From Terriglobia bacterium (GTDB taxonomy: Bacteria > Acidobacteriota > Terriglobia > UBA7540), in contig JAIQEZ010000051.1 in NCBI GenBank assembly GCA_020073545.1, positions 1 to 32,405 of the forward strand: a DNA stretch of 32,405 bases. Reading direction: 5' to 3'. Each line of letters starts with the position of its first letter. Positions within the stretch are counted from its first letter, which is position 1. The position numbers and the translations under genes are program-made. This document shows positions 4,106 through 32,001 of the stretch, piece by piece. The notes below the pieces were generated by a model, which made no database searches, was not told where the DNA came from, and saw only the letters and a program-made list of their open reading frames with translations.

Positions 4106-5464
4106 ATGAGGAAAGAACTCGGTCTAGGTTTCCTGGTCTTTGTCTTGTTGTTTTCTCTAGTGGGTCTCGTCCAGTCTCAGACGCCCACGCACTCCAAAGC
4201 CAACCCCACCATCGCCGCACGCGCGGCCACGTCGGCGAGCCCGAGCGCGGCCCCCGAGGACGTGGGCCTTTCGTCCGAGCGCCTGGAGCGCATCGCGAGC
4301 GCCATCCAGAGAAGCATCGACGACGGGCGCATCGCCGGCGGCGTCAGCCTGGTGGCGCGGCACGGCAAGATTGCTTACCTGAAAGCGGTCGGCATGGCTG
4401 ACCGTGACGCCAAGAAGCCCATGCGCACGGACAGCATCTTCCGCATCTGTTCCATGTCCAAGCCCCTCACCAGCGTCGCCGTCATGATGCTTTACGAGGA
4501 GGGGCGGTTCACCCTGAACGAGCCGGTCTCCGACTTTCTCCCGGAGTTCAAGAACATGAAGGTCCTCGACCCGCCTTGGCCGCAGGACAAGACTTCCCCG
4601 CCGGGAGCGCTGGTGGATGCCAAGCGCCCCATCACCATCTTCCATCTGCTCACGCACACCTCTGGACTGACGTATGGCGGCGCACGCCTAAGCAAGGCCT
4701 ACCGCGACGCGGGCGTCACTACCGGCCTGATTCAGCAGGAAGGCACGATCGCCGAGGGAGTGAAAAGGTTGGCGACTGTGCCCCTGCTCTTCCAACCCGG
4801 AGATGTCTGGGAATACAGCCTGGCGGACGACGTGCTGGGTCGGTTGGTGGAAGTGGTTTCCGGCATGCCCTTTGACAAGTTTCTCGAGGAGCGCCTCTTC
4901 AAACCCCTGGGAATGAAGGACACGTGCTTCTTCCTGCCAGAAGAGAAAGTGGCGCGGTTGGCAACGACCTACACGTACTATGCGGGCAAGGGGCTGCAGC
5001 CGATTCTGGACGGGCAGGTCGTAAAAGAAAGTGACTCCGATACCGGTTACTCCGCGGACTATCCCTACCGCGGGCCAAAAACCTACTTCTCCGGAGGCGC
5101 CGGCCTTTGCTCGACAGCGGAGGATTACTATCGCTTCTGCCAGATGATGCTGAATGGCGGCGAGCTGAACGGCGTGCGCATCATCAGCCGCAAGTCCGTG
5201 GAGTTGATGAGCCAGAACCACGTGCAAGGCAAACTCGACGACTTCGGCTACGGCCTGGGGTTCGGTGACACCAGCGAACCCAAACAACTGACGGAACTCG
5301 GCTCCGTGGGCACCTATTACTGGGGCGGTTTTTTTTACACCACTTTCGTGATCGACCCCAAAGAAGACCTGATCGCCATCTTCATGGGGCAGCTCCACCC
5401 CACGGGAGGACTGAACCTCGACTCCAAAGCCATCCGGCTGGCGTACCAGGCCATCAAGGATTGA
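4106..5464 (+). CDS. Exported serine hydrolase, beta-lactamase/EstB family
   Basis: A 452-residue protein with a signal peptide (about 1-24) and the serine beta-lactamase-like fold (PF00144; class C lactamases, esterase EstB, D-aminopeptidases). The catalytic SxxK is S116-M-S-K119. The second motif is a Tyr at about 237 in [13 protein letters not shown], which replaces the YxN of true class C enzymes. A GG-FF segment near 410 stands where the third KTG/HxG motif falls. The Asn-less second motif and general resemblance favour an esterase or peptidase acting in the periplasm over a drug-hydrolysing lactamase; the substrate is unknown. The start is ATG at 4106, with AAGGAG at 4095-4100 five bases upstream; longer in-frame upstream starts lack this site and would hide the signal peptide. 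Confidence 0.85.
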
Positions 5465-5542
5465 GCGCGCCGACGCGAGCGCCAACTGTTTTGCGCCCCT
5501 CCCCATGGGTGTAGGGACGTGCGGACCCCAGGAGCACACGTC

Positions 5543-6352
5543 TTGCTGAACGGAAAGCGAATCTTCGTCGTGATGCCCGCCTACAACGCTGTCCAGACGC
5601 TGCGGTGGACTTCGGCCGAGCTGCCGCGGGACATCGTTGACGACGTACTGGTGGTCGACGACCACAGTTCCGACGCCACCGTGCAATTGGCGCGCGAGCT
5701 GGGCCTGACCACCTTCGTGCACCACCAAAACCTCGGCTACGGTCGCAATCAGAAAACCTGTTACCGCGAAGCCTTGCGCCGGGGCGCCGACGTTGTGGTG
5801 ATGCTGCACCCCGATTACCAGTATTCTCCCCGGCTGGTCACCGCCATGGCCAGCCTGATCGCCTATGGCGAGTACGACGTGGTGCTGGGCTCCCGGATTC
5901 TCGGCCACGGGGCGCTGGCTGGCGGCATGCCACTGTATAAGTACGTTGCCAACCGGCTGCTGACCTTCTTCCAGAATCTCCTGCTCAATTACAAGCTCTC
6001 GGAATACCACACCGGCTACCGGGCTTTTTCGCGGGAAGTGCTCCAGGCCCTGCCCCTGGAAGAGAATTCCGATGATTTTGTCTTCGACAATGAGCTGCTG
6101 ACGCAGGCGATTTACCTGCGCTATCGCCTGGGGGAGGTGTCTTGCCCCACCAAATACTTCCCCCAGGCGTCGTCGATCAATTTCGTCCGCAGCGTAAAGT
6201 ACGGGCTGGGGGTAGTGGCCACCTCGCTGAAGTTTCGGCTGCAGAAAATGGGCCTCGGGCGGTTCCGCATCCTCAATCCGCGCGGGCGAAAACTGCTGGA
6301 GCACTATTACCATGAGGTCAGGGATTCCAGCCCGCAGGAGGGCCACTCCTAA
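5543..6352 (+). CDS. Family 2 glycosyltransferase (DPM1-like)
   Basis: A 269-residue GT2 enzyme of the dolichyl/polyprenyl-phosphate sugar synthase type. It begins with the nucleotide-binding strand [11 protein letters not shown], followed by [10 protein letters not shown] at about 41-50, and a DxD-like HPDYQY at about 92-97. [12 protein letters not shown] is the conserved acceptor-site segment. No long C-terminal membrane pair is present, so it is probably cytoplasmic or membrane-peripheral and uses a lipid-phosphate acceptor. The start chosen is TTG at 5543 because AGGAG (5530-5534) lies eight bases upstream and family members start just before this strand; a GTG at 5519 would add eight residues. 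It follows the serine hydrolase by about 80 bases and could share its transcript. Sugar and acceptor are not known. Confidence 0.85.
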
Positions 6353-6629: not shown

Positions 6630-7511
6630 ATGGACAACCACCCCTTCTCACACACGGCGACTTCGCAAGAATCGCCCTCAAGCCTGAGGCGGAGTACGCG
6701 GATTGAATTCGTCACCCCCGTATTCCTTTCCGGCCGGGATGCCGCTGGCGAGCGATTTCGCGAGCTGACTCAGACTGTGCTGGTGAACCTGCACGGCTGC
6801 AAGCTGCGGACGTCCTATCATGTCCTGGTCGGGATGGTCGTTACGCTGGAATGTCCCAAGGCGGGCACGACGGGCAAGGCGGTCTGCGTTAAGGTTTGGG
6901 ATGCGCCGGCGGGAGTAGTCGGGCACGAGATTGCCGTCCAACTGATTAGACCCCGGAACTTGTGGAGCGTGCCCGACCCGCCTGCCGACTGGGAAACCGT
7001 CGCCAAGACCATGGTGGAGGGACCCACGGTTCAAGCAGAATCCCCCACCCAGGCTGCGGCGCCTCCCTCACCCGCTGCACCCCCTCCCTCGCCCGTTGCA
7101 CCCCCTCCCGTTCCCCTGGCGGAGACATCCCCTCTCGGAACCCTTACGGTCGACCTGCGGCTGGCTGAACTCGAGGGACGCTCCGCACAACTGCTGGAGT
7201 CCTTTCTCGATATCATGTACAGCCAAGCTGAGGAGATTACACGCACCTGCCTGGAGGAGTTGCGCCAGCAGGTGGAGGTCCTCCTCCGGGATGCGGAGGA
7301 GCGGCTGCGGCAGAGCTTCCATCAATCCTACGAAGCGTCGGCGTCATCTCTGACGGGCCTGGAGGGTGATCTTATCGACCAAATGACCTCCCGCAGCGCT
7401 CAACTGATCCGCTCCGCAGAGGAAGCCTTGCGAGCTCGCTCCCGCGAACTGCTTGGCACCCAGGACAGACCCGCTCCAGCGCAGCCTTCCAAACAGGCCT
7501 CGCAGAAGTGA
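6630..7511 (+). CDS. PilZ-like domain protein with proline linker and coiled coil
   Basis: A 293-residue cytoplasmic protein in three parts. Residues about 18-112 look like a PilZ beta-barrel, the cyclic-di-GMP receptor fold: R20-x3-R24 (RRSTR) fits the RxxxR ligand motif and is followed by beta-rich sequence. The second PilZ motif, normally (D/N)xSxxG, reads VNLHGCKL, so the Ser is missing and nucleotide binding is uncertain. Residues about 135-165 form a Pro/Ala-rich linker of repeated APPPSP-type units. Residues about 170-280 are strongly charged and helical with heptad character, suggesting a coiled-coil output or oligomerisation domain. It stands alone with its own apparent promoter. The function is not known; a signalling or scaffold role is inferred from the architecture. 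Confidence 0.65.
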   Translation: MDNHPFSHTATSQESPSSLRRSTRIEFVTPVFLSGRDAAGERFRELTQTVLVNLHGCKLRTSYHVLVGMVVTLECPKAGTTGKAVCVKVWDAPAGVVGHEIAVQLIRPRNLWSVPDPPADWETVAKTMVEGPTVQAESPTQAAAPPSPAAPPPSPVAPPPVPLAETSPLGTLTVDLRLAELEGRSAQLLESFLDIMYSQAEEITRTCLEELRQQVEVLLRDAEERLRQSFHQSYEASASSLTGLEGDLIDQMTSRSAQLIRSAEEALRARSRELLGTQDRPAPAQPSKQASQK

Positions 7512-7895
7512 TCCGCCTTTTCGATCCCACACGGAACTGCCTCGCCCGGCGTCGTACTTAAGTCTTTGTCCATCGGGTCTTGCCCGGCTAACTTCGCAAG
7601 CATGGAATGGAGGGCCGGGTGTGCGCGCATGTTGTGGGCCAAGTCGCGCATCCTCTTTGATATAATAAGAAAGTTGAGGCAGAGGGGGCAGTCCGTCTTT
7701 AGTTTGCATGATTCAGGTTGGTTCGGGGCTTACTTGCAGTCGAGATGCTTTTGCCTTACACCGCTTCTCTATCCGGTATTTGTGCGGCAGTGGGGGCACC
7801 TCACGGCTTTGACTTCCCGACTTCGTCCCGATGCATGCAAAAGTGGGTAAGCCACGGTCTGATCCGATCTCAAGAGGCACCTTAAGAGGAGTTCG
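7512..7895 (+). other. Intergenic region upstream of korA with candidate -10 element
   Basis: These 384 bases contain no convincing gene. A TATAAT hexamer at 7661-7666 is a perfect -10 sequence, but no good -35 lies 16-18 bases upstream. If used, the korAB leader would be about 220 bases long. Open frames in this stretch have no ribosome site and no recognisable product. Confidence 0.35.
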
Positions 7896-23084: not shown

Positions 23085-23621
23085 ATGCGGACACTTTTAT
23101 GTGGCGTGGTGCTGGCCCTGATGGCTGCGGGCCTGGGACGGGCTCAATACGACCACTCAGTGTTGGAGGCACGTGCGGTAACGGCGACCGACGCCGCCCA
23201 CTCCAATTCCACTTTGAAAATGGCCGTGGTGGTTCAGGTGGCCGCCGGCTATCACATCAACGATCGCAAGCCCTCGTTGGATTATCTGATTCCCACCGAA
23301 CTCAAGCTGGAGCCCAGCGCCGAGATTACGGTGAAGGATGTGGTCTACCCGAAGGGAACGCTCAAGAAGTTAGCGTTTTCCGACAGCGCGCTCTCCGTCT
23401 ATGAGGGCAAGGTGGTGGTGGGGGCGCTGCTGCAGGTGGCGAAGGGTGTGCCACCTGGGTCCTACTTCGTGAAGGGGAAGTTTGCATACCAGGCCTGCAA
23501 CGATCATGCCTGCTTGCCGCCGACCAGCGTGCCGTTGGAGGTGACGGTGAGAGTCGTTCCGCGCGACGTGCCGTTGAAGCAGGTGGATGCCGATGTCTTC
23601 CAGCGAATCCAATTCGAGTAG
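23085..23621 (+). CDS. Exported DsbD-alpha-like (disulfide corrector) domain protein
   Basis: A 178-residue protein consisting of a signal peptide (about 1-20) and one domain matching the N-terminal alpha domain of DsbD (PF11412 family): strands around VQVAAGYHINDRKP, then ELKLEPSAEITVKDVVYPKG, and ending in YQACNDHACLPPTSVPLEVTV. The active Cys pair is C138-x4-C143, as in the alpha domain of DsbD. In full-length DsbD this domain passes electrons to periplasmic acceptors; here it is encoded alone, with CcdA and a thioredoxin as separate genes. The ATG at 23085 is preceded by GGGAGAGG; an in-frame GTG at 23055 would add ten residues ahead of the signal. The next gene overlaps it by 29 bases. 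Confidence 0.82.
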   Translation: MRTLLCGVVLALMAAGLGRAQYDHSVLEARAVTATDAAHSNSTLKMAVVVQVAAGYHINDRKPSLDYLIPTELKLEPSAEITVKDVVYPKGTLKKLAFSDSALSVYEGKVVVGALLQVAKGVPPGSYFVKGKFAYQACNDHACLPPTSVPLEVTVRVVPRDVPLKQVDADVFQRIQFE

Positions 23622-24024
23622 CGCTCCCGGGCCCGCACCGGGTGAGGGAAAACCGCGTGGCTCCGCCGCTCTGGTTGTGCTGGCACTGGCGTTGCTGGCG
23701 GGGCTGGTGTGGGCGATGGCTCCTCCGCGTGCGAAATTCGTCCCTGCGCCGCTTCGCCCCATGCCTCCCGATTGCCCGAAGAACACACCGGATTTCGTTC
23801 CTTCGGACGCGACCGAAATTCCGGGCATCGATTTGAGGGCGCTCTCGAAGGAGCAACGCAATCGAGTTCTCTTCCGTTTGAACATGGAACCTTGCCCTTG
23901 CGGCTGCAACCTGAGCATCGCCGCCTGCCGGGTCAACCATCCGACTTGCCCCGTCTCGAAGGGCCTGGTGGAAAAGATCATTGCCGAAGAACGAGAGAGG
24001 TCGGGCGCGCTCCCCGGCAAGTAG
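23593..24024 (+). CDS. Membrane-anchored protein with CxCGC cysteine module
   Basis: A 143-residue protein with a Ser/Pro-rich cytoplasmic N-terminus, one membrane helix (about 25-43) and a periplasmic part. Residues about 84-120 carry LSKEQ and then C101-x-C103-x-C105-x6-C112-x6-C119, identical in spacing to the tail of the TlpA-like protein two genes upstream. Five Cys plus an Arg after the fourth suggest a metal site or a redox module. No named family is assigned. The start at ATG 23593 is favoured because AGGTGG (23581-23586) lies six bases before it; ATG 23587 is possible. It overlaps the end of the DsbD-alpha gene in another frame, indicating a coupled operon. Confidence 0.7.
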   Translation: MSSSESNSSSAPGPAPGEGKPRGSAALVVLALALLAGLVWAMAPPRAKFVPAPLRPMPPDCPKNTPDFVPSDATEIPGIDLRALSKEQRNRVLFRLNMEPCPCGCNLSIAACRVNHPTCPVSKGLVEKIIAEERERSGALPGK

Positions 24025-25434: not shown

Positions 25435-26889
25435 CTATTTCCCGCCGGCGCGCAAATGAGCCGCCGCGCGGTGGAGGCGGGAGATAACGCGGTCACGCCC
25501 CAGCGCCAGCATCACCTCAAACAACCCCGGCGCCACCGCCTGACCCGTCAAAGCCACGCGCGCGGCGTTGATGAGCAATCCTGCCTTCACGCCTTTCTCT
25601 TCCGCCAGGCTACGCAGAGTCTTTTCCGTTGCGGCCACGTCAAAGGGTTCTGTCGCCGCCAGGCGCTCGGCGAGCGCGTCGATGAGCGCGGGTAGCGCCG
25701 CATCCTTCCAAAACTTCTTCTCTGCTTCCGGGTCGTAAGTGAACTCGTCAGTAAAGAACGCTCGGAAAGCGCCAGAGAAGTCCTGGAGCGTCCGCGCCCG
25801 GGATTGCAGCAGCAGAACGGTCTGTTTGAACCGCTCTTCCTGCCGAGGCGCGAATCCCGAATCCCGAGCCCCCAGTCCCGCTTTCGTCAGTTCCCGCTCG
25901 ACCAGTGGCCGCAGTTGCTCCGCCGGCAGGTTCCGCACGTACTCGCTATTCATCCACGCCAGCTTCTCAAGATCGAAAACGGCATTCGACTTCGAGACTG
26001 CCGTGAGCTCGAAATCGCGAATCATTTCCTCGCGCGGCACGATTTCCTTCTGGCCGGGCGGCGTCCACCCGAGCAGCACCAGGAAATTGACCAGCGCTTC
26101 CGGCAAGACTCCCTGCTCGCGATAGGCTCCCACCGACGTCGCGCCGTGCCGCTTGGAAAGGCGTTGTTTGTCCGGCCCGAGGATCAGCGGCAGGTGCGCG
26201 AAGGCCGGCACGGGCGCTTCCAGCGCGCGATACATCAGGATTTGTTTGGGCGTGTTCGAAATGTGGTCGGCGCCGCGAATCACGTGCGTGACGCGCAGAT
26301 CGAGGTCATCGGCCACGACGCCAAGGTGATAGGTGGGGTGTCCGTCGGAGCGGAGCAGCACGAAGTCCTCGAGGTCGCGATGTTGCACTTCGATGTGGCC
26401 GAAGACCTGGTCCTCGAAACTCGTCTGGCCGGAATCCGGCACGCGAAAGCGAATCGCCGACGGGCGGCCCTCCGCGCGCCGACGCTCGCGCTCGGCAGCG
26501 GAGAGCGCGCGGCAGGCGCCGTCGTATTTCCACGCGCGGCGCTCGGCCTCGGCCTGCGCCCGCTTAGCCTGCAGTTCCTCCGGCGTGCAGAAGCAAGGAT
26601 AGGCGTGCCCCGAGCGCTCGAGGTTCAGGGCCATCTCGCGGTAACGCGCCAGGCGCTGAGACTGATAGACCGGGCCTTCGTCCCAGGTGAGACCGAGCCA
26701 TTCCAGGCTCTCCAGGATGGCCGTGGTGAGCTCGGGCTTCGAGCGGTCCATGTCCGTGTCTTCGATGCGCAGGATGAAGACGCCGCCCACGTGACGCGCG
26801 AAAAGCCAGTTGTAAAGCGCCGTGCGCGCGCCTCCTACGTGCAGATAACCCGTGGGCGAGGGCGCAAAACGGACTCGGACACCACTCAT
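25435..26889 (-). CDS. gltX: Glutamyl-tRNA synthetase
   Basis: A 484-residue class I synthetase that charges tRNA-Glu. The HIGH-type motif is YLHVGG at about 15-20 in APSPTGYLHVGGARTALYNW, and the KMSKS-type motif is RLSKR at about 243-247. The Rossmann core, the connective insertion and the C-terminal anticodon-binding helical bundle are all present with normal length. The start at ATG 26889 (MSGVRVRFAPS) was chosen because the family begins here; an in-frame ATG at 26961 would add 24 unmatched residues. Upstream on the same strand, 130 bases away, is the SCO1-like gene. Whether the enzyme is discriminating or non-discriminating cannot be judged from this sequence alone. Confidence 0.97.
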   Translation of the reverse strand: MSGVRVRFAPSPTGYLHVGGARTALYNWLFARHVGGVFILRIEDTDMDRSKPELTTAILESLEWLGLTWDEGPVYQSQRLARYREMALNLERSGHAYPCFCTPEELQAKRAQAEAERRAWKYDGACRALSAAERERRRAEGRPSAIRFRVPDSGQTSFEDQVFGHIEVQHRDLEDFVLLRSDGHPTYHLGVVADDLDLRVTHVIRGADHISNTPKQILMYRALEAPVPAFAHLPLILGPDKQRLSKRHGATSVGAYREQGVLPEALVNFLVLLGWTPPGQKEIVPREEMIRDFELTAVSKSNAVFDLEKLAWMNSEYVRNLPAEQLRPLVERELTKAGLGARDSGFAPRQEERFKQTVLLLQSRARTLQDFSGAFRAFFTDEFTYDPEAEKKFWKDAALPALIDALAERLAATEPFDVAATEKTLRSLAEEKGVKAGLLINAARVALTGQAVAPGLFEVMLALGRDRVISRLHRAAAHLRAGGK

Positions 26890-27019
26890 GATCCTTGAGG
26901 ACGGCGAGGGCGCGATCAGCCGATTCAGTCGCGGCCCGCGTTGAACAAGCAGAACCATCATCGTACGCGATTATGCTCGGGAAGGCAAAAAGCGTGACGT
27001 AATGCCGACGGTCGCGACA

Positions 27020-27901
27020 TTAACCCCGTGGCGAGTTTCGAAGATCAATCAGCACCTCAGCGGGCTGCCACTGGTTGCCGCGGTAAAGCTTGCGCACTTT
27101 CCCGTCCGGGCCGATGAGCGCCGTCATAAGCGCGTGCACGATCTGGCCGCGGTCATCCCAATAGTTCACGCCAAAGAATCTCGTAACTTCGCGGACCTGG
27201 TCAGGATTACCGGAGGCAAACTCCCAACGTTCGAAGGGATCGCCGGGGAATTTGCCCACGCGTTCCAGGCCATAGCTGCGTAAGACGGCGGGCGTATCGT
27301 GCTCAGGGTCAATGCTGATGCTCAACAGGTAGGTGGAGGCCGCCAGGGGACTGTCACTGCGGAGTTGGTCCAGGATTTTCGCAAAGTTCTGGCTCAGCAA
27401 AGGGCAATAATCCGGAAGCGGGCAGCGCGTGTAGATGAAAGTCAGCAGCAAAGCTTTACCTCGGTACTGATGGAGGTGAATCCGCTTTCCGTCCTGATTG
27501 ATGAGCTGGAAGTCCGGTACTTCCGCCCCGAGCGGCGGCGGGCGCAAAGCCTCGGGCGGCGCCGGCGAGGGGCTCTCCGGTCTTGCTTCCTCAGTGACGA
27601 CGAGGCCCTCAAGCCAGGCATTCTCTCCTTGCACGACTAGCGTCGCGCGGACGCTTTGGCCCGCTTTGAGAACATCGAAAGCCCATTGATCCCTGAGGAC
27701 AAAGCCCATGGTCATGGCCCCCATGTAACCCTGGATCGCCTCGTGGGCCAGCGTCACCGTGCCACCGCGCCTATCCACGGCGACGACTTTACCCCTCACT
27801 TCGTACCGCTGCTGTGGCAAGGGCTTTTCCTCCTGGCACGCTGTCAAGGCGAAAACCAGGTTCAAACCGATGAGCCAAGCCAGCAGACTCTGCACACGCA
27901 T
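27020..27901 (-). CDS. Lipoprotein with CusF-like copper domain fused to SCO1/SenC domain
   Basis: A 293-residue lipoprotein: signal peptide with lipobox LTAC (about residue 22), then a CusF-like small beta-barrel (about 33-105) containing HEAIQGYMGAMTMGF, whose His and Met residues match copper ligands of CusF-type domains. A Pro-rich linker (about 107-123) leads to a SCO1/PrrC thioredoxin-like domain. Its metal motif reads C-P-L-P-D-Y-C (CX5C instead of the usual CX3C), with the third ligand His in QIVHALMTAL. SCO proteins deliver copper to cytochrome oxidase or act as thiol reductases. The start at ATG 27901 has GGGAGG six bases upstream; an ATG at 27931 would add ten residues. It lies 57 bases after the TonB receptor. 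Confidence 0.85.
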   Translation of the reverse strand: MRVQSLLAWLIGLNLVFALTACQEEKPLPQQRYEVRGKVVAVDRRGGTVTLAHEAIQGYMGAMTMGFVLRDQWAFDVLKAGQSVRATLVVQGENAWLEGLVVTEEARPESPSPAPPEALRPPPLGAEVPDFQLINQDGKRIHLHQYRGKALLLTFIYTRCPLPDYCPLLSQNFAKILDQLRSDSPLAASTYLLSISIDPEHDTPAVLRSYGLERVGKFPGDPFERWEFASGNPDQVREVTRFFGVNYWDDRGQIVHALMTALIGPDGKVRKLYRGNQWQPAEVLIDLRNSPRG

Positions 27902-27958
27902 CACCAACCTCCCGGTCATCATTGTCACCATTTATGCAATCCTCAGTGGCTCCTGCCG

Positions 27959-30175
27959 CTAAAAGTGGAAGCGATAGCGGAGCTCGAAATAGATTTGCCG
28001 TGGGTTCACGAAATGCGTGCCGCCGAACGTGTTGCTGTTGTCGACGAGGTAGCGGCGGTTGCTCAGGTTCAATCCCGTCAAGGCCAGGGACCAGCTTTCC
28101 CCGAATGACTTCCCCAACGAGATGTCAAACGTGTTGTGGCGAGGCAGGTGATCAGGACCGTCGCCGTCGAGGAAGCCTGAACCGTACTGGACGCCCGTGG
28201 TGGCCCAGGCGCGCCGGGGCAGCGTGAGCGAAAGCACGGAACTCAAGGCGTTGCGCTGGTCGTGGTCGAGGAAGAAGTAGCCTGCCTCGGGCGGCGAGAA
28301 ATCGGTAAGCCCGCCGGTCACGGCGCCGAACCCTTCCGCGTGCTGGTGCGAGAAGGCCACGTGAACCTGCGCGCGGCGCAGGAACTTGGGGGACCCCGCG
28401 GTCGCCTCCCAGCCGAAGATGCGTGCTCCCTGAATCGTCAGGGGCAGGAAGATGTTGGAATCCCCGATCACATCGTGGTCGAAGAAGTTTCGCGCGTGAG
28501 TGCGGAAAGCATCCGCGTCGAACACCCAATTACGCAGCGGGATGGTCAGTCCCGCCTCGTACTGCTCGTCGCGCTCGCCGCGTAAGGGAAGAAAACCGAC
28601 TCCCTGCTGGAGTGCGAATTCGAGCAAGGGTCCGGCGATGGCATCGAGCGGCGGAGGCTGGTAGTAGCGCCCGTAAAATCCGTGCAACACCCAGGTCAGT
28701 TTGGGCACGCGCAGGCTGGCTCCGACGCGGGGGTCTGCCGCGTTCTCGCTTAGCAGGCCGTCGTAGTGCGTGAGCCGGATGCCGCCGCTCAGAGAGAGCC
28801 AGGGAGTCGCGCGGTACTGGTCCTGCAGGAACACCGTTTCCACGCCGCCCCAAGGAGCCAGTCGCTCCTGCACGGGAGGCTGGCTGCCGCCGGATGCGCG
28901 CAAATCGAAGAACGTATCGTCGTGCTGTGCGAAAGCTTCCAAACCCACCTGGGCGTTGTGCTTTCCGGCTACGATGCCGAGCGAAGCCTGGCCGCCCAGG
29001 TAGTGCGACACGCGATCGTCGTTCAATACGAAGGGATTGTCACCAGGGCCGCCGAGGTAATTGGCGCGATTGTAATGGTAGAAGGGCGAGACGGTGAGCA
29101 ACGTTCCCTTGCCGATTGTGTGTACCCAGGAAAAGTTGACGAAAGCGTCGCGCTCCTTGTCGAGGTCACGGGTTCCCGCCACCTGGGCGTCGGGGGTGTT
29201 GGGGATCTGGTAGTGGTCACCGCGCACGGAAGCCACCACACGCAACTGGTCGTTGGGCGTGGCGTTGAAGACGATGTCGCCGAAACCGCCGAGTCCGCTT
29301 TCCAGATCGTGGATGACGGCACCCGTAGGGGACGGCAGCCCCAGGTCGGAACGGTTCCCGTTCAAGCTGGCGTAATAGGCGAAACGCACGGTGTGGCTGC
29401 CGACGCTCAGTTGGTCGTTGGTCTGGTTAAAGCTGCCGTAGCTCATCACCAGTTCGGCTTCGTTGTTGTATTCGAAACCTGTGCGCGGGATGACGTTAAA
29501 CACGCCATAGGTGCGGTCCCCATATTCCGCCGAGTACCCGCCGCTGCTCATCTCGATGTAGTCGACGTCCTTGGGATCAAATTGGGGGCCAACGTTGCTG
29601 GCGATGTTGGTGTTGGGCACGTCCACTCCGTCCACCTGCCAGCTCACCTGATGCCCGCCCCGCACGTGAAGCTGGTCGTGAACCACATAGGCGCCGGGGA
29701 GAAAGTCGGTAATCATCGTGAGGCTGTTCGTCTGGTCGGCCCCGGGCGTATGCGCAACCTGCTGCCGGCTAACGAGAGTCTGGGTGGCTGAGGATTCCGT
29801 GTTGATGACCTCCGGCGCCGCAGAGACCTCAACCTTCTCGGTCAGGGCCGCCAGTAGCATCTGGAAATGGATCACCGGAGCGCTGCCGGAGACGACGGTG
29901 ATTGGCTGCTCCAGAGGGCTGAACCCTGTCGCCGTAACCTTCAAGGTGTAGTCGCCGATGGGTACGGCCTCAAATTGAAACTCGCCCTCGGAATTCGATG
30001 GGGCCGTGGCGGACCAGTCGGAAGCTTGGGCATGGAGCGTGGCCTGCGCGCCTTCCATAGGACGATGCTGGGGATCGTGAACGATCCCCCGGACATTTCC
30101 AAAGATCGTGGCCAGCGCCGGCATCAAGCAGAAGAAAACAGCCAGCAACGTGGCCGAGAAAACTCTCTGCCTCAT
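27959..30175 (-). CDS. TonB-dependent outer-membrane receptor
   Basis: A 738-residue outer-membrane protein. It has a signal peptide (about 1-20), a CarboxypepD_reg-like beta-sandwich domain (about 22-105, with VRGIVHDPQHRPMEGAQATL), a plug domain (about 110-260, including LPGAYVVHDQLHVRGGHQVS and QVDGVDVPN) and a beta-barrel that ends in ELRYRFHF; the terminal Phe is the barrel-assembly signal. No classical TonB box is evident to me. The ligand is unknown, but the neighbouring CusF-SCO1 lipoprotein and the Cys/His-rich protein upstream make a copper or other metal complex a reasonable guess. The start at ATG 30175 gives the signal peptide directly; GAGGTG lies unusually close (three bases). 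Confidence 0.9.
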   Translation of the reverse strand: MRQRVFSATLLAVFFCLMPALATIFGNVRGIVHDPQHRPMEGAQATLHAQASDWSATAPSNSEGEFQFEAVPIGDYTLKVTATGFSPLEQPITVVSGSAPVIHFQMLLAALTEKVEVSAAPEVINTESSATQTLVSRQQVAHTPGADQTNSLTMITDFLPGAYVVHDQLHVRGGHQVSWQVDGVDVPNTNIASNVGPQFDPKDVDYIEMSSGGYSAEYGDRTYGVFNVIPRTGFEYNNEAELVMSYGSFNQTNDQLSVGSHTVRFAYYASLNGNRSDLGLPSPTGAVIHDLESGLGGFGDIVFNATPNDQLRVVASVRGDHYQIPNTPDAQVAGTRDLDKERDAFVNFSWVHTIGKGTLLTVSPFYHYNRANYLGGPGDNPFVLNDDRVSHYLGGQASLGIVAGKHNAQVGLEAFAQHDDTFFDLRASGGSQPPVQERLAPWGGVETVFLQDQYRATPWLSLSGGIRLTHYDGLLSENAADPRVGASLRVPKLTWVLHGFYGRYYQPPPLDAIAGPLLEFALQQGVGFLPLRGERDEQYEAGLTIPLRNWVFDADAFRTHARNFFDHDVIGDSNIFLPLTIQGARIFGWEATAGSPKFLRRAQVHVAFSHQHAEGFGAVTGGLTDFSPPEAGYFFLDHDQRNALSSVLSLTLPRRAWATTGVQYGSGFLDGDGPDHLPRHNTFDISLGKSFGESWSLALTGLNLSNRRYLVDNSNTFGGTHFVNPRQIYFELRYRFHF

Positions 30176-30311
30176 TTGCACCTCGTGGTGAATGTACAGC
30201 GACGGAGCGCCAAACGGGGACGGGTGAGGAGCCGCGGGAACTTGAATAAGCACCGGCGGCACTGCCCACGTCCCTCGACGGAAGGCGCAGACGACAGTTG
30301 TCGATGAGGAT

Positions 30312-30680
30312 TCAGAGAGAGGGGCGCGGAGGCTGGTCGAGAGGTCGCGCGTGCGATGGTAACAGGGTCAGGCGAGCAGCGGCGTGGCTAAAACCCCAGG
30401 ACGCTTGGCGGCCCGGCAAACGATGCTCCGTGGGAACGAAAATCAGGGTGCTGAGAAGCGAGTTCAGGAAGCTGTCGCGAGAATCAAGCCCGCATTGCCC
30501 GCCGTTTGCCATGTCGCACATCGCGGCGTGTCCGAGTTCGTGATGATGGCCCGGACACCGGCAGGCATTTGGAGGGCACGCGCACACCTCCACGCCGCCG
30601 CGGATTGAAAGCGACCGCGCGCCGGGTGCAAGCAGAACGGCTATTGTGAAGATGGCCAGTACTCGGCCTGCCATGTACAT
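30312..30680 (-). CDS. Exported Cys/His-rich small protein
   Basis: A 122-residue protein with a predicted signal peptide (about 1-23) and a compact metal-ligand cluster: C33, C35, C40, C42, H45-H47, H51, C55 and C63 (CACPPNACRCPGHHH and following). The rest is Pro/Arg-rich with no membrane helix; the last 35 residues are Arg/Pro-rich and may be disordered. It is transcribed towards the TonB receptor gene, 136 bases away, and then the CusF-SCO1 lipoprotein. No family is assigned; some copper-linked small proteins (DUF2946-like) have a comparable layout, but I see no firm match. The start at ATG 30680 lacks a clear ribosome site, with ATG 30674 as alternative. TAGAAT just upstream is a candidate -10. 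Confidence 0.55.
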   Translation of the reverse strand: MYMAGRVLAIFTIAVLLAPGARSLSIRGGVEVCACPPNACRCPGHHHELGHAAMCDMANGGQCGLDSRDSFLNSLLSTLIFVPTEHRLPGRQASWGFSHAAARLTLLPSHARPLDQPPRPSL

Positions 30681-31170
30681 GCTTTGTGGTTAAAGCCCCA
30701 AAACTGTATTCTACCAGATTTTGGGAAAACCGGCTGATATGCAAGTAGTCGTGCAGTTTCCGAGCGGGCGACGATGTAGGAGTTGAGCGACTTCGCTCTA
30801 CCCTATGGCGTTACTCGCGATTAATGGCAGTGAGTACCATTCAACCCAAACTTCTTCGAAGGGCAGCAATACGGGCAGTGCGCGACGCTCACTTGCCGTG
30901 GAGTCCACCTTCGATTGGCATTCAGCTCGGTGCCCGACACTCACTGGGGCGATGGCGACTTGTCGAAAGCCACCTGCGTTAAATGGTACGTGGAGCGAGA
31001 ATGGCGGAGTTCTGACCGGGCAAGTGAGTTCTTTTCAGCTCGCGGAGGCGTATGAAATCCGTGTGTCCAAACAACATTGAACCGCCGTATGACCACTGTT
31101 TGGTCTTGAGAACTGTCATCGAGAATTCACGATTAATCATCATCCCAGGGTGTTAGACTGCAAGAAAGCC
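30681..31170. other. Intergenic region without a supported gene
   Basis: These roughly 490 bases separate the divergent metal operon and the membrane protein gene. A small hairpin, GAGCGA-CT-TCGCTC (30785-30798), is visible. An open frame at 30805-31080 has no ribosome site and no recognisable composition, so I leave it out. Confidence 0.35.
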
Positions 31171-32001
31171 ATGGCCCTTTTCGATCCGCCCAGTTTGAAT
31201 TACCCGACGCGATGGAAGGATTTCTCGCTCGATAACAAGTTGGCGTTTGTGTACTTCGGGTGCATGACGGTGCTCTTCGCGAATGGCGATGCACTTTCGG
31301 TCAAGCAAGAACTCCTGGCCACAATGATCCTGGTCGCCACCCTACTTTCGCTGTCTATGAGGTACCGACGCCGGATGAATTGGCGCTGGCCAGGAGTCCA
31401 AACAAAAGGCGTGCTGACTGCAGTCGGCATACTTGTGGTAGCAGGTATCTTCGAATTCGCTGTAACACCGCTCGCCCCCAGCTCTGATCCCGGTTTCCTG
31501 CCGTGGCACTTGTTTGGACTGGGGGGTGGCGTGTTTGGGGTACTAGATGCCCTGAAGATCGTTCAACTTTCAAAGTCTGATTTTCTAAGGGAATGTGAAG
31601 CTGTGGGTGCTGCGGATTTCCACGCGAAATCTACCGGTGAGACGATTCCGGTTGTTCCCACGGACCCACTTTGGAAGAGGGCGACTCGAGCCCTCTACGG
31701 CATCGTATTTTTTCTCGTCTGGCTTGCTTGCCTCGCTTCCTTCTATTATTCTGGCGTCGCCGTTCGAGATGGATCGTCCAGGCCTACGCCAACACAGACA
31801 GAGCCGCTGAACAATCATGGGCAGATCGTGTATGTTCAACACTCTCAGAAGGTGTTGGTCGATTCTCTCGAAGAAGTAATGTCTATCGGCTTTCCTTTGG
31901 TCTTCGTGAGTGGGTTTATTCTCCATTTCTTCTTGGGCGTGAGGCTGTTTCCGAACACGCCCACGCTGCGGGAATGCAGAAAGCAACGCCACAGGGACTG
32001 A
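31171..32001 (+). CDS. Multi-pass membrane protein of unknown function
   Basis: A 276-residue protein with about six hydrophobic segments: roughly 25-40, 48-63, 80-102, 111-127, 174-198 and 242-262. A polar loop with the sequence TPTQTEPLNNHG lies between the last two, and the C-terminus is basic (RECRKQRHRD). No catalytic or transport motif is recognised. The start at ATG 31171 gives MALFDPPSLNYP; a GTG at 31150 would add seven residues, and neither has a strong ribosome site. Composition is slightly more A/T-rich than the operons to the left. It stands alone, with non-coding sequence on both sides. Confidence 0.55.
   Translation: MALFDPPSLNYPTRWKDFSLDNKLAFVYFGCMTVLFANGDALSVKQELLATMILVATLLSLSMRYRRRMNWRWPGVQTKGVLTAVGILVVAGIFEFAVTPLAPSSDPGFLPWHLFGLGGGVFGVLDALKIVQLSKSDFLRECEAVGAADFHAKSTGETIPVVPTDPLWKRATRALYGIVFFLVWLACLASFYYSGVAVRDGSSRPTPTQTEPLNNHGQIVYVQHSQKVLVDSLEEVMSIGFPLVFVSGFILHFFLGVRLFPNTPTLRECRKQRHRD

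Follow-up and report, generated by a model that had tools for sequence, protein, structure and literature searches.

A putative metal-sensing arrest leader ahead of a TonB receptor and a CusF-SCO1 lipoprotein gene in Terriglobia (Acidobacteriota)

Introduction

What does a small exported protein rich in Cys and His do directly in front of a TonB-dependent receptor? This question is raised by a stretch of 32,405 nucleotides of a Terriglobia bacterium (Acidobacteriota; assembly GCA_020073545.1, contig JAIQEZ010000051.1), which as a whole is called the window here. On its minus strand, an open reading frame (ORF) of 122 amino acids is followed by a gap of 136 nucleotides, a TonB receptor, a CusF-SCO1 lipoprotein and then gltX. 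An earlier note, made from the sequence of the window, had suggested a copper acquisition operon in which the small protein acts as metal carrier or sensor. We propose instead, with a probability of about 75%, that the small ORF controls the TonB receptor and the CusF-SCO1 gene through its own translation, as a metal-sensing arrest leader.

To our knowledge, metal sensing by a nascent chain is known in detail from two Proteobacteria, and we know of no study of copper uptake in these Acidobacteriota. In Bordetella pertussis, CruR (BP2923, DUF2946) lies ahead of the TonB receptor BfrG, senses copper via a CXXC motif, acts by ribosome arrest together with Rho, and ends with RAPP three residues before the stop codon (PMC9426467). 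CutF of Rhodobacter capsulatus is located ahead of cutO and acts through a stem-loop that shields the Shine-Dalgarno (SD) sequence (PMC9973294).

The small ORF of the window

The following features belong to the small ORF, in the following referred to as leader or upstream ORF (uORF):

30312-30680, minus strand: leader ORF of 122 amino acids, a putative nascent-chain metal sensor
30630-30677, minus strand: signal-peptide-like hydrophobic helix, residues 2-17
30492-30584, minus strand: Cys/His cluster, residues 33-63, CxCx4CxC..HHH...H...C...C
30324-30332, minus strand: codons CCT CCG CGC for Pro117-Pro118-Arg119, the putative translation-arrest site

Since the ORF is under purifying selection, with a ratio of nonsynonymous to synonymous substitution rates (dN/dS) of 0.30 against the sister species, and since all nine homologs found in relatives of the organism's family immediately precede a same-strand TonB receptor, it is a real gene and not a chance occurrence. 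As counted earlier, 31 residues contain exactly six Cys and four His, with Cys at positions 33, 35, 40, 42, 55 and 63 and His at 45, 46, 47 and 51, and all six Cys are invariant in ten close homologs. The hydrophobic N-terminus forms the most confident segment of the AlphaFold model, a helix of residues 2-17, and the rest is predicted to be disordered. The protein ends with QPPRPSL, i.e., QPPR and three further residues, with Pro-Pro at 117-118 of 122, and every one of the ten close homologs ends with PPR and exactly three residues.

The broad class of CutF-like and CruR-like proteins comprises proteins of <150 amino acids with an N-terminal signal peptide, a metal-binding Cys/His motif in the mature part, Pro-Pro within the last 15 residues and a downstream gene on the same strand within 1,000 nucleotides (PMC9973294). 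Judged by these sequence criteria the window leader falls into this class, as it has 122 amino acids, a hydrophobic, signal-peptide-like N-terminus, a putative motif at residues 33-63, the Pro-Pro near its end and the receptor 136 nucleotides away. It does not fall into DUF2946, as the DUF2946 (PF11162) profile gives no match to the window ORF, which has CxC, Cx4C and CxC but neither CXXC nor a C-terminal RAPP.

Leaders in front of the receptor orthologs

Across the class, 47 receptor orthologs with readable upstream DNA were compared, which share 42-100% receptor identity except for one locus (L058). As leader, a small upstream ORF on the same strand with at least four Cys and Pro-Pro in its last 13 residues was accepted. 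Such a leader is present at 45 of the 47 orthologs versus 4 of 19 distant TonB paralogs (Fisher p = 2e-9), and among the four positive paralogs two (L164, L172) resemble real leaders, although of another type. By this Cys/Pro-Pro test no leader was found at L137, one of two receptor copies in genome G010, or at L138 in G019. The 45 leaders have a mean column identity of only about 22%, and yet every leader in the alignment has the Pro-Pro and three of the Cys, and a fourth Cys is almost invariant. None of the 45 leaders matches DUF2946, and none gives a convincing match to an NCBIfam or any other family. An identification by DUF2946 or NCBIfam profiles, for the window ORF as for the 45 leaders, was therefore rejected, and as a positive control the L059 leader, from the same family of organisms, does match DUF2946. 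This L059 ORF (1492-1842, minus strand, genome G016) is a classic DUF2946 leader (CTAC ... GRAPPPA) directly ahead of a TolC-like outer-membrane efflux gene.

What has been kept besides these residues is a distance. The last cluster Cys and the Pro-Pro are separated by 53.4 +/- 2.3 residues (40 loci; where a leader has an additional Cys closer to its end, spacing was measured from the last Cys that lies >35 residues before the Pro-Pro), whereas the other spans, from start to first Cys and from first to last Cys, have standard deviations near 7. The corresponding spacing is 48 in CruR (PMC9426467) and about 45 in CutF (PMC9973294). A constant length despite sequence drift is what the exit tunnel together with the translocon would impose. 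The Pro-Pro itself is located 2-7 residues before the end of the 45 leaders, most often 4.

The residues around the Pro-Pro differ between the leaders. Ends of the xPP[KR] type comprise QPPR, HPPR, HPPK, PPPK and PPPR, and at the same position RAPP (L104, L145), RGPP (L141, L142, L144, L147, L149) as well as RSPP and RPPP (L096, L099, L108) occur. On a tree of 44 receptors the class of the end motif changes at least nine times. RAPP and RGPP are published ribosome-arrest motifs, and arrest by RAPP has also been shown for CruR in vitro (PMC12992588). Since the xPP[KR] ends are exchanged with known arrest motifs at one orthologous site, this argues that they may do the same job.

These conserved features bear on the suggestion of the earlier note that the small protein carries metal. 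As a carrier or buffer it would be exported and act in trans with the receptor and the CusF-SCO1 protein, which would suit its six Cys and four His in 31 residues, its position beside a receptor and a copper chaperone and the purifying selection. However, apart from the signal helix the product is predicted to be disordered, and its sequence changes quickly, with only the Cys positions, the Pro-Pro end and the spacing being kept. Moreover, the ORF lies directly upstream of the receptor in the same orientation in the readable loci, and there is a codon-level signal at the end of the gene (see below). As the kept features fit an arrest leader better than a functional periplasmic domain, the carrier function is unsupported and we regard it as very unlikely. 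The alternative suggestion of a sensor holds in so far as the protein is supported as a nascent-chain leader peptide, which would act in cis, a mode that had not been proposed.

Related leaders were also observed elsewhere. At L058 (G025:C145), a leader of the window type (34% identical) stands before a TonB receptor that is just 25% identical to that of the window, so that the leader is kept and the receptor differs. The window-leader profile furthermore found a Cys/His-rich small ORF ending with FQPPRI in genome G148 of the same class (L069, 1495-1860, plus strand). Leaders of a second type, which contain many His but few Cys and end with PPPFQPPR, precede a distant TonB paralog at L164, L171 and L172 (and, judged by its ending, L163); at L171, CAACCTCC is the exact complement of GGAGGTTG of its receptor. 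In another phylum, a Deltaproteobacteria metagenome-assembled genome (L033, JABFSC010000003.1) contains a single cluster with three different small Cys/His ORFs ending with PPPR (4168-4581, 5201-5812 and 7332-7775), one of them before a CusF-SCO1 gene and one before a TonB receptor, i.e., in the same layout. L033 is the clear exception among the SCO-CusF relatives away from the receptor, most of which have no leader ahead of them. Of the distant receptor relatives on proteobacterial plasmids three were checked, and none has such a leader upstream.

Proline codons and the start site of the receptor

The arrest site also carries a signal at the level of codons, which is new in these leaders. The first terminal Pro codon is CCT in 31 of the 45 leaders, whereas the codon usage of the respective receptors would predict 5.5 (z = 11.8), and at the other uORF prolines the share of CCT is 21%. 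Since CCTCC complements GGAGG, the biased codon is complementary to the Shine-Dalgarno sequence of the receptor itself. In a scan along the leaders, complementarity to the SD of the receptor at the same locus peaks at the terminal Pro codons, with -11.0 versus about -7 to -8 kcal/mol elsewhere. Cognate leader and SD arms pair better than swapped partners (0 of 5000 permutations; 7 of 20000 with close relatives removed) and better than synonymous recodings (resampling p = 2e-5), and the predicted pairing of the SD with the footprint region of the stalled ribosome is 0.53 versus 0.17 in shuffles. General intergenic structure is no comparable signal, with a mean fold z of only -0.9. Given the CCT/SD complementarity, a stalled ribosome could open the start site of the receptor.

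In the window copy a different helix is predicted, which involves the following elements:

30304-30319, minus strand: last uORF codons, stop codon and next bases (CTCTCTG ... CCTCAT), the strand predicted to sequester the receptor start
30176-30311, minus strand: intergenic leader of 136 nucleotides (fold z -2.8) with the Shine-Dalgarno-like GAGGT of the receptor at 30180-30184
30163-30175, minus strand: ATGAGGCAGAGAG, start codon and first codons of the receptor, the predicted partner strand

The pairing of CTCTCTG ... CCTCAT with ATGAGGCAGAGAG has predicted base-pair probabilities of 0.82-0.98, and only 1 of 200 shuffles reaches the observed pairing.

Several points weigh against an arrest leader that opens the start site in this way. 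The leader search demanded Pro-Pro and Cys, so that both traits are partly selected for, and the leaders of one receptor are homologous, so that the loci are only partly independent of each other. Of the end motifs, RxPP has been published as an arrest motif and QPPR has not. With the footprint of the stalled ribosome masked, the predicted SD pairing falls modestly, from 0.72 to 0.63, with a drop of more than 0.1 in 18 of 45 loci and none in the window copy. In the latter the pairing between SD and proline codons is ordinary (z = -0.1), and the start-codon helix was adopted in its place; this helix is partly ahead of a ribosome stalled on Pro-Pro, and its opening by the pause is plausible, not assured. 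Moreover, the CCT bias could reflect tRNA effects on stalling instead.

The same leader could also work as CruR does, through Rho-dependent termination ahead of the receptor, in which a stalled ribosome shields the rut site and metal frees the ribosome, so that Rho stops transcription. In the loci, a C>G bubble spans the leader's end, with +14.5 points over its last 150 nucleotides vs +4 for the receptor gene. It resembles that described for cruR (PMC9426467), and the intergenic distance of 136 nucleotides is close to the 162 of cruR-bfrG. The bubble is real, but it is fully accounted for by amino-acid composition (codon-matched z averages 0.0) and was rejected as a sign of a Rho site. Furthermore, the intergenic gap measures just 45-60 nucleotides in many loci of the class, and Rho predicts neither the bias of the proline codons nor the cognate SD complementarity. 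Termination by Rho is thus a possibility that we consider doubtful, and we infer that release would take place at translation.

Proposed mechanism and its sign

For an arrest leader the following course can be assumed. The nascent chain would start its export via the signal peptide, and the ribosome would pause at the terminal Pro-Pro-(Arg). The Cys/His cluster, made about 54 residues earlier, would then have just left the exit tunnel or be located at the translocon. Binding of a metal to this cluster, with copper as the most likely one, would alter the duration of the pause. The mRNA under and just beyond the stalled ribosome would otherwise pair with the receptor start site, which the stalled ribosome would keep open. 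As the receptor is an uptake receptor, the same sign as in CruR is expected: at low copper a long pause would allow the receptor to be made, and at high copper the pause would be relieved, the helix would close and the receptor would be off.

The sign could also be that of CutF, with metal prolonging the pause and turning the receptor and CusF-SCO1 on, which would make the locus a copper-handling response and not an uptake system. CutF works so with an SD-shielding stem-loop (PMC9973294), which is nearest to the RNA architecture found here, and the folds of CusF and SCO, which are those of copper chaperones, have a role in tolerance as well. The main partner, however, is a TonB receptor with 13 conserved His, which imports by nature, and CruR, the studied leader before a TonB receptor, mediates repression by copper. 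We therefore rate a CutF-like sign as fairly unlikely.

For the whole class, we tentatively suggest, at a little less than even odds, that the proline codons serve twice, as arrest residues and as anti-Shine-Dalgarno strand, and that fast-evolving, unnamed metal-sensing arrest leaders guard a conserved receptor in Acidobacteriota, with interchangeable end motifs including the undescribed xQPPR/HPPK type.

Receptor, downstream gene and the metal

The two genes that the leader would control are:

27959-30175, minus strand: TonB-dependent receptor of 738 amino acids, with 13 conserved His and no conserved Cys or Met except the start Met
27020-27931, minus strand: lipoprotein, CusF-like barrel fused to a SCO1 domain (Cx5CP motif)

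The grouping of an exported small protein, a TonB receptor and a CusF-SCO1 lipoprotein, as originally described, is borne out by the Pfam domains. The receptor matches the TonB barrel (9e-24), the plug (4e-6) and CarboxypepD_reg (7e-17). The model of the OprC-type copper receptor (TIGR01778) is not among its NCBIfam matches at E<=1, and a sequence comparison with the PDB found no relative. Its identity could not be read from structure, as the fold is a generic TonB fold whose top matches are mostly siderophore receptors with 13-17% identity and which singles out no copper receptor. The lipoprotein contains PF02630 (SCO1-SenC, 1e-20) and PF11604 (CusF, 3e-14) in one protein. Its SCO1/SenC part combines the profile with the Cys-Cys-His copper ligands, the Cys pair being spaced Cx5CP, and its CusF part combines the profile with the His, Met, Met ligands, with HEAIQGYMGAMTM present in the sequence. 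The SCO1 motif CPLPDYCP is two residues longer than the usual CxxxCP, a form that the relatives L105 and L106 have as well.

Within the genus, L050, L051, L054 and L055 have the same three-gene order, and another family of the class keeps it too, though its leader ORF has diverged (G077, L105). Calling it a three-gene operon was an overstatement, since the copper gene does not always follow the receptor: many receptor orthologs have no copper gene within reach downstream, and in genus g3 gltX comes directly after the receptor. Besides CusF-SCO1 in the window's genus and G077, genes with a CusF domain stand behind the receptor in G043, G058 and G086 (L139, L140, L145). Because CusF-domain genes recur there in several lineages, the assignment of the group to copper is supported, and copper is the best guess for the sensed metal. 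Zinc, nickel/cobalt or iron would be in line with a receptor that has conserved His and no conserved Cys or Met, with CutF-like proteins reported before non-copper genes (PMC9973294) and with the many orthologs that lack a copper gene within reach. Against these metals stand the recurrent CusF-SCO1 and CusF-domain genes just named, and we judge another metal to be unlikely.

Comparison with known leader systems

The locus resembles that of CruR (before bfrG/crtA; PMC9426467, PMC12914433) in that a small exported Cys protein is followed, after a long intergenic gap, by a TonB receptor. Likewise, the Pro-Pro is a few residues from the end and about 50 amino acids from the Cys motif, there is a C>G bubble, and the product is poorly structured. 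Unlike CruR, the window leader has no DUF2946 match and no CXXC, and QPPR replaces RAPP. The window receptor does not match the OprC model and has 13 conserved His versus two reported for CrtA (PMC12914433), the third gene encodes CusF-SCO1 whereas the CruR locus has PepSY_TM, and the evidence in the window and the class points to sequestration of the start site, not specifically to Rho. With CutF (PMC9973294) the leaders share export, Cys, a proline-rich end and an SD of the next gene that is predicted to be shielded in the mRNA. However, the next gene is a TonB receptor here and a multicopper oxidase in the case of CutF, and the anti-SD strand extends over the very proline codons in much of the class. 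SecM-secA and RAPP-like leaders (PMC10987492, PMC12992588) are also small secreted proteins, in which arrest at a terminal RAxP/RxPP opens an SD-sequestering helix. In contrast to SecM, the Cys/His cluster at a fixed distance implies metal and not export status as the signal, and the xPP[KR] ends are outside the published survey of RAPP/RGPP. The lipoprotein has the CusF His-Met-Met ligands and the SCO1 Cys pair with a distal His like other CusF-SCO1 fusions and differs from the usual ones in Cx5CP (CPLPDYCP) instead of CxxxCP.

The design of nascent-chain metal sensors would thus extend to a class of bacteria that are abundant in soil and whose leaders appear to escape surveys by profile or motif. 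About 45 natural variants of one regulator before one receptor make its minimal rules readable, namely the positions of the Cys, a Pro-Pro near the end and a ruler of about 54 residues. Furthermore, a testable link between arrest codons and RNA structure is offered, and a candidate family of copper receptors, defined by conserved histidines, is suggested.

Other features of the window

An Rfam search of the window gave no match, and a sigma-70 promoter scan found no promoter. The next gene downstream is not considered part of the system:

25435-26961, minus strand: gltX (glutamyl-tRNA synthetase)

On the plus strand, 23587-24024 encodes a protein of 145 amino acids that looks membrane-anchored and has CPCGC and further Cys but no Pfam match. 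It lies near DsbD-like (20298) and TlpA-like (22137) genes, which together may form a thiol or copper cluster of their own. An ORF of 283 amino acids (31150-32001, plus strand), which is divergent from the leader ORF, encodes a protein of unknown family with several hydrophobic stretches.

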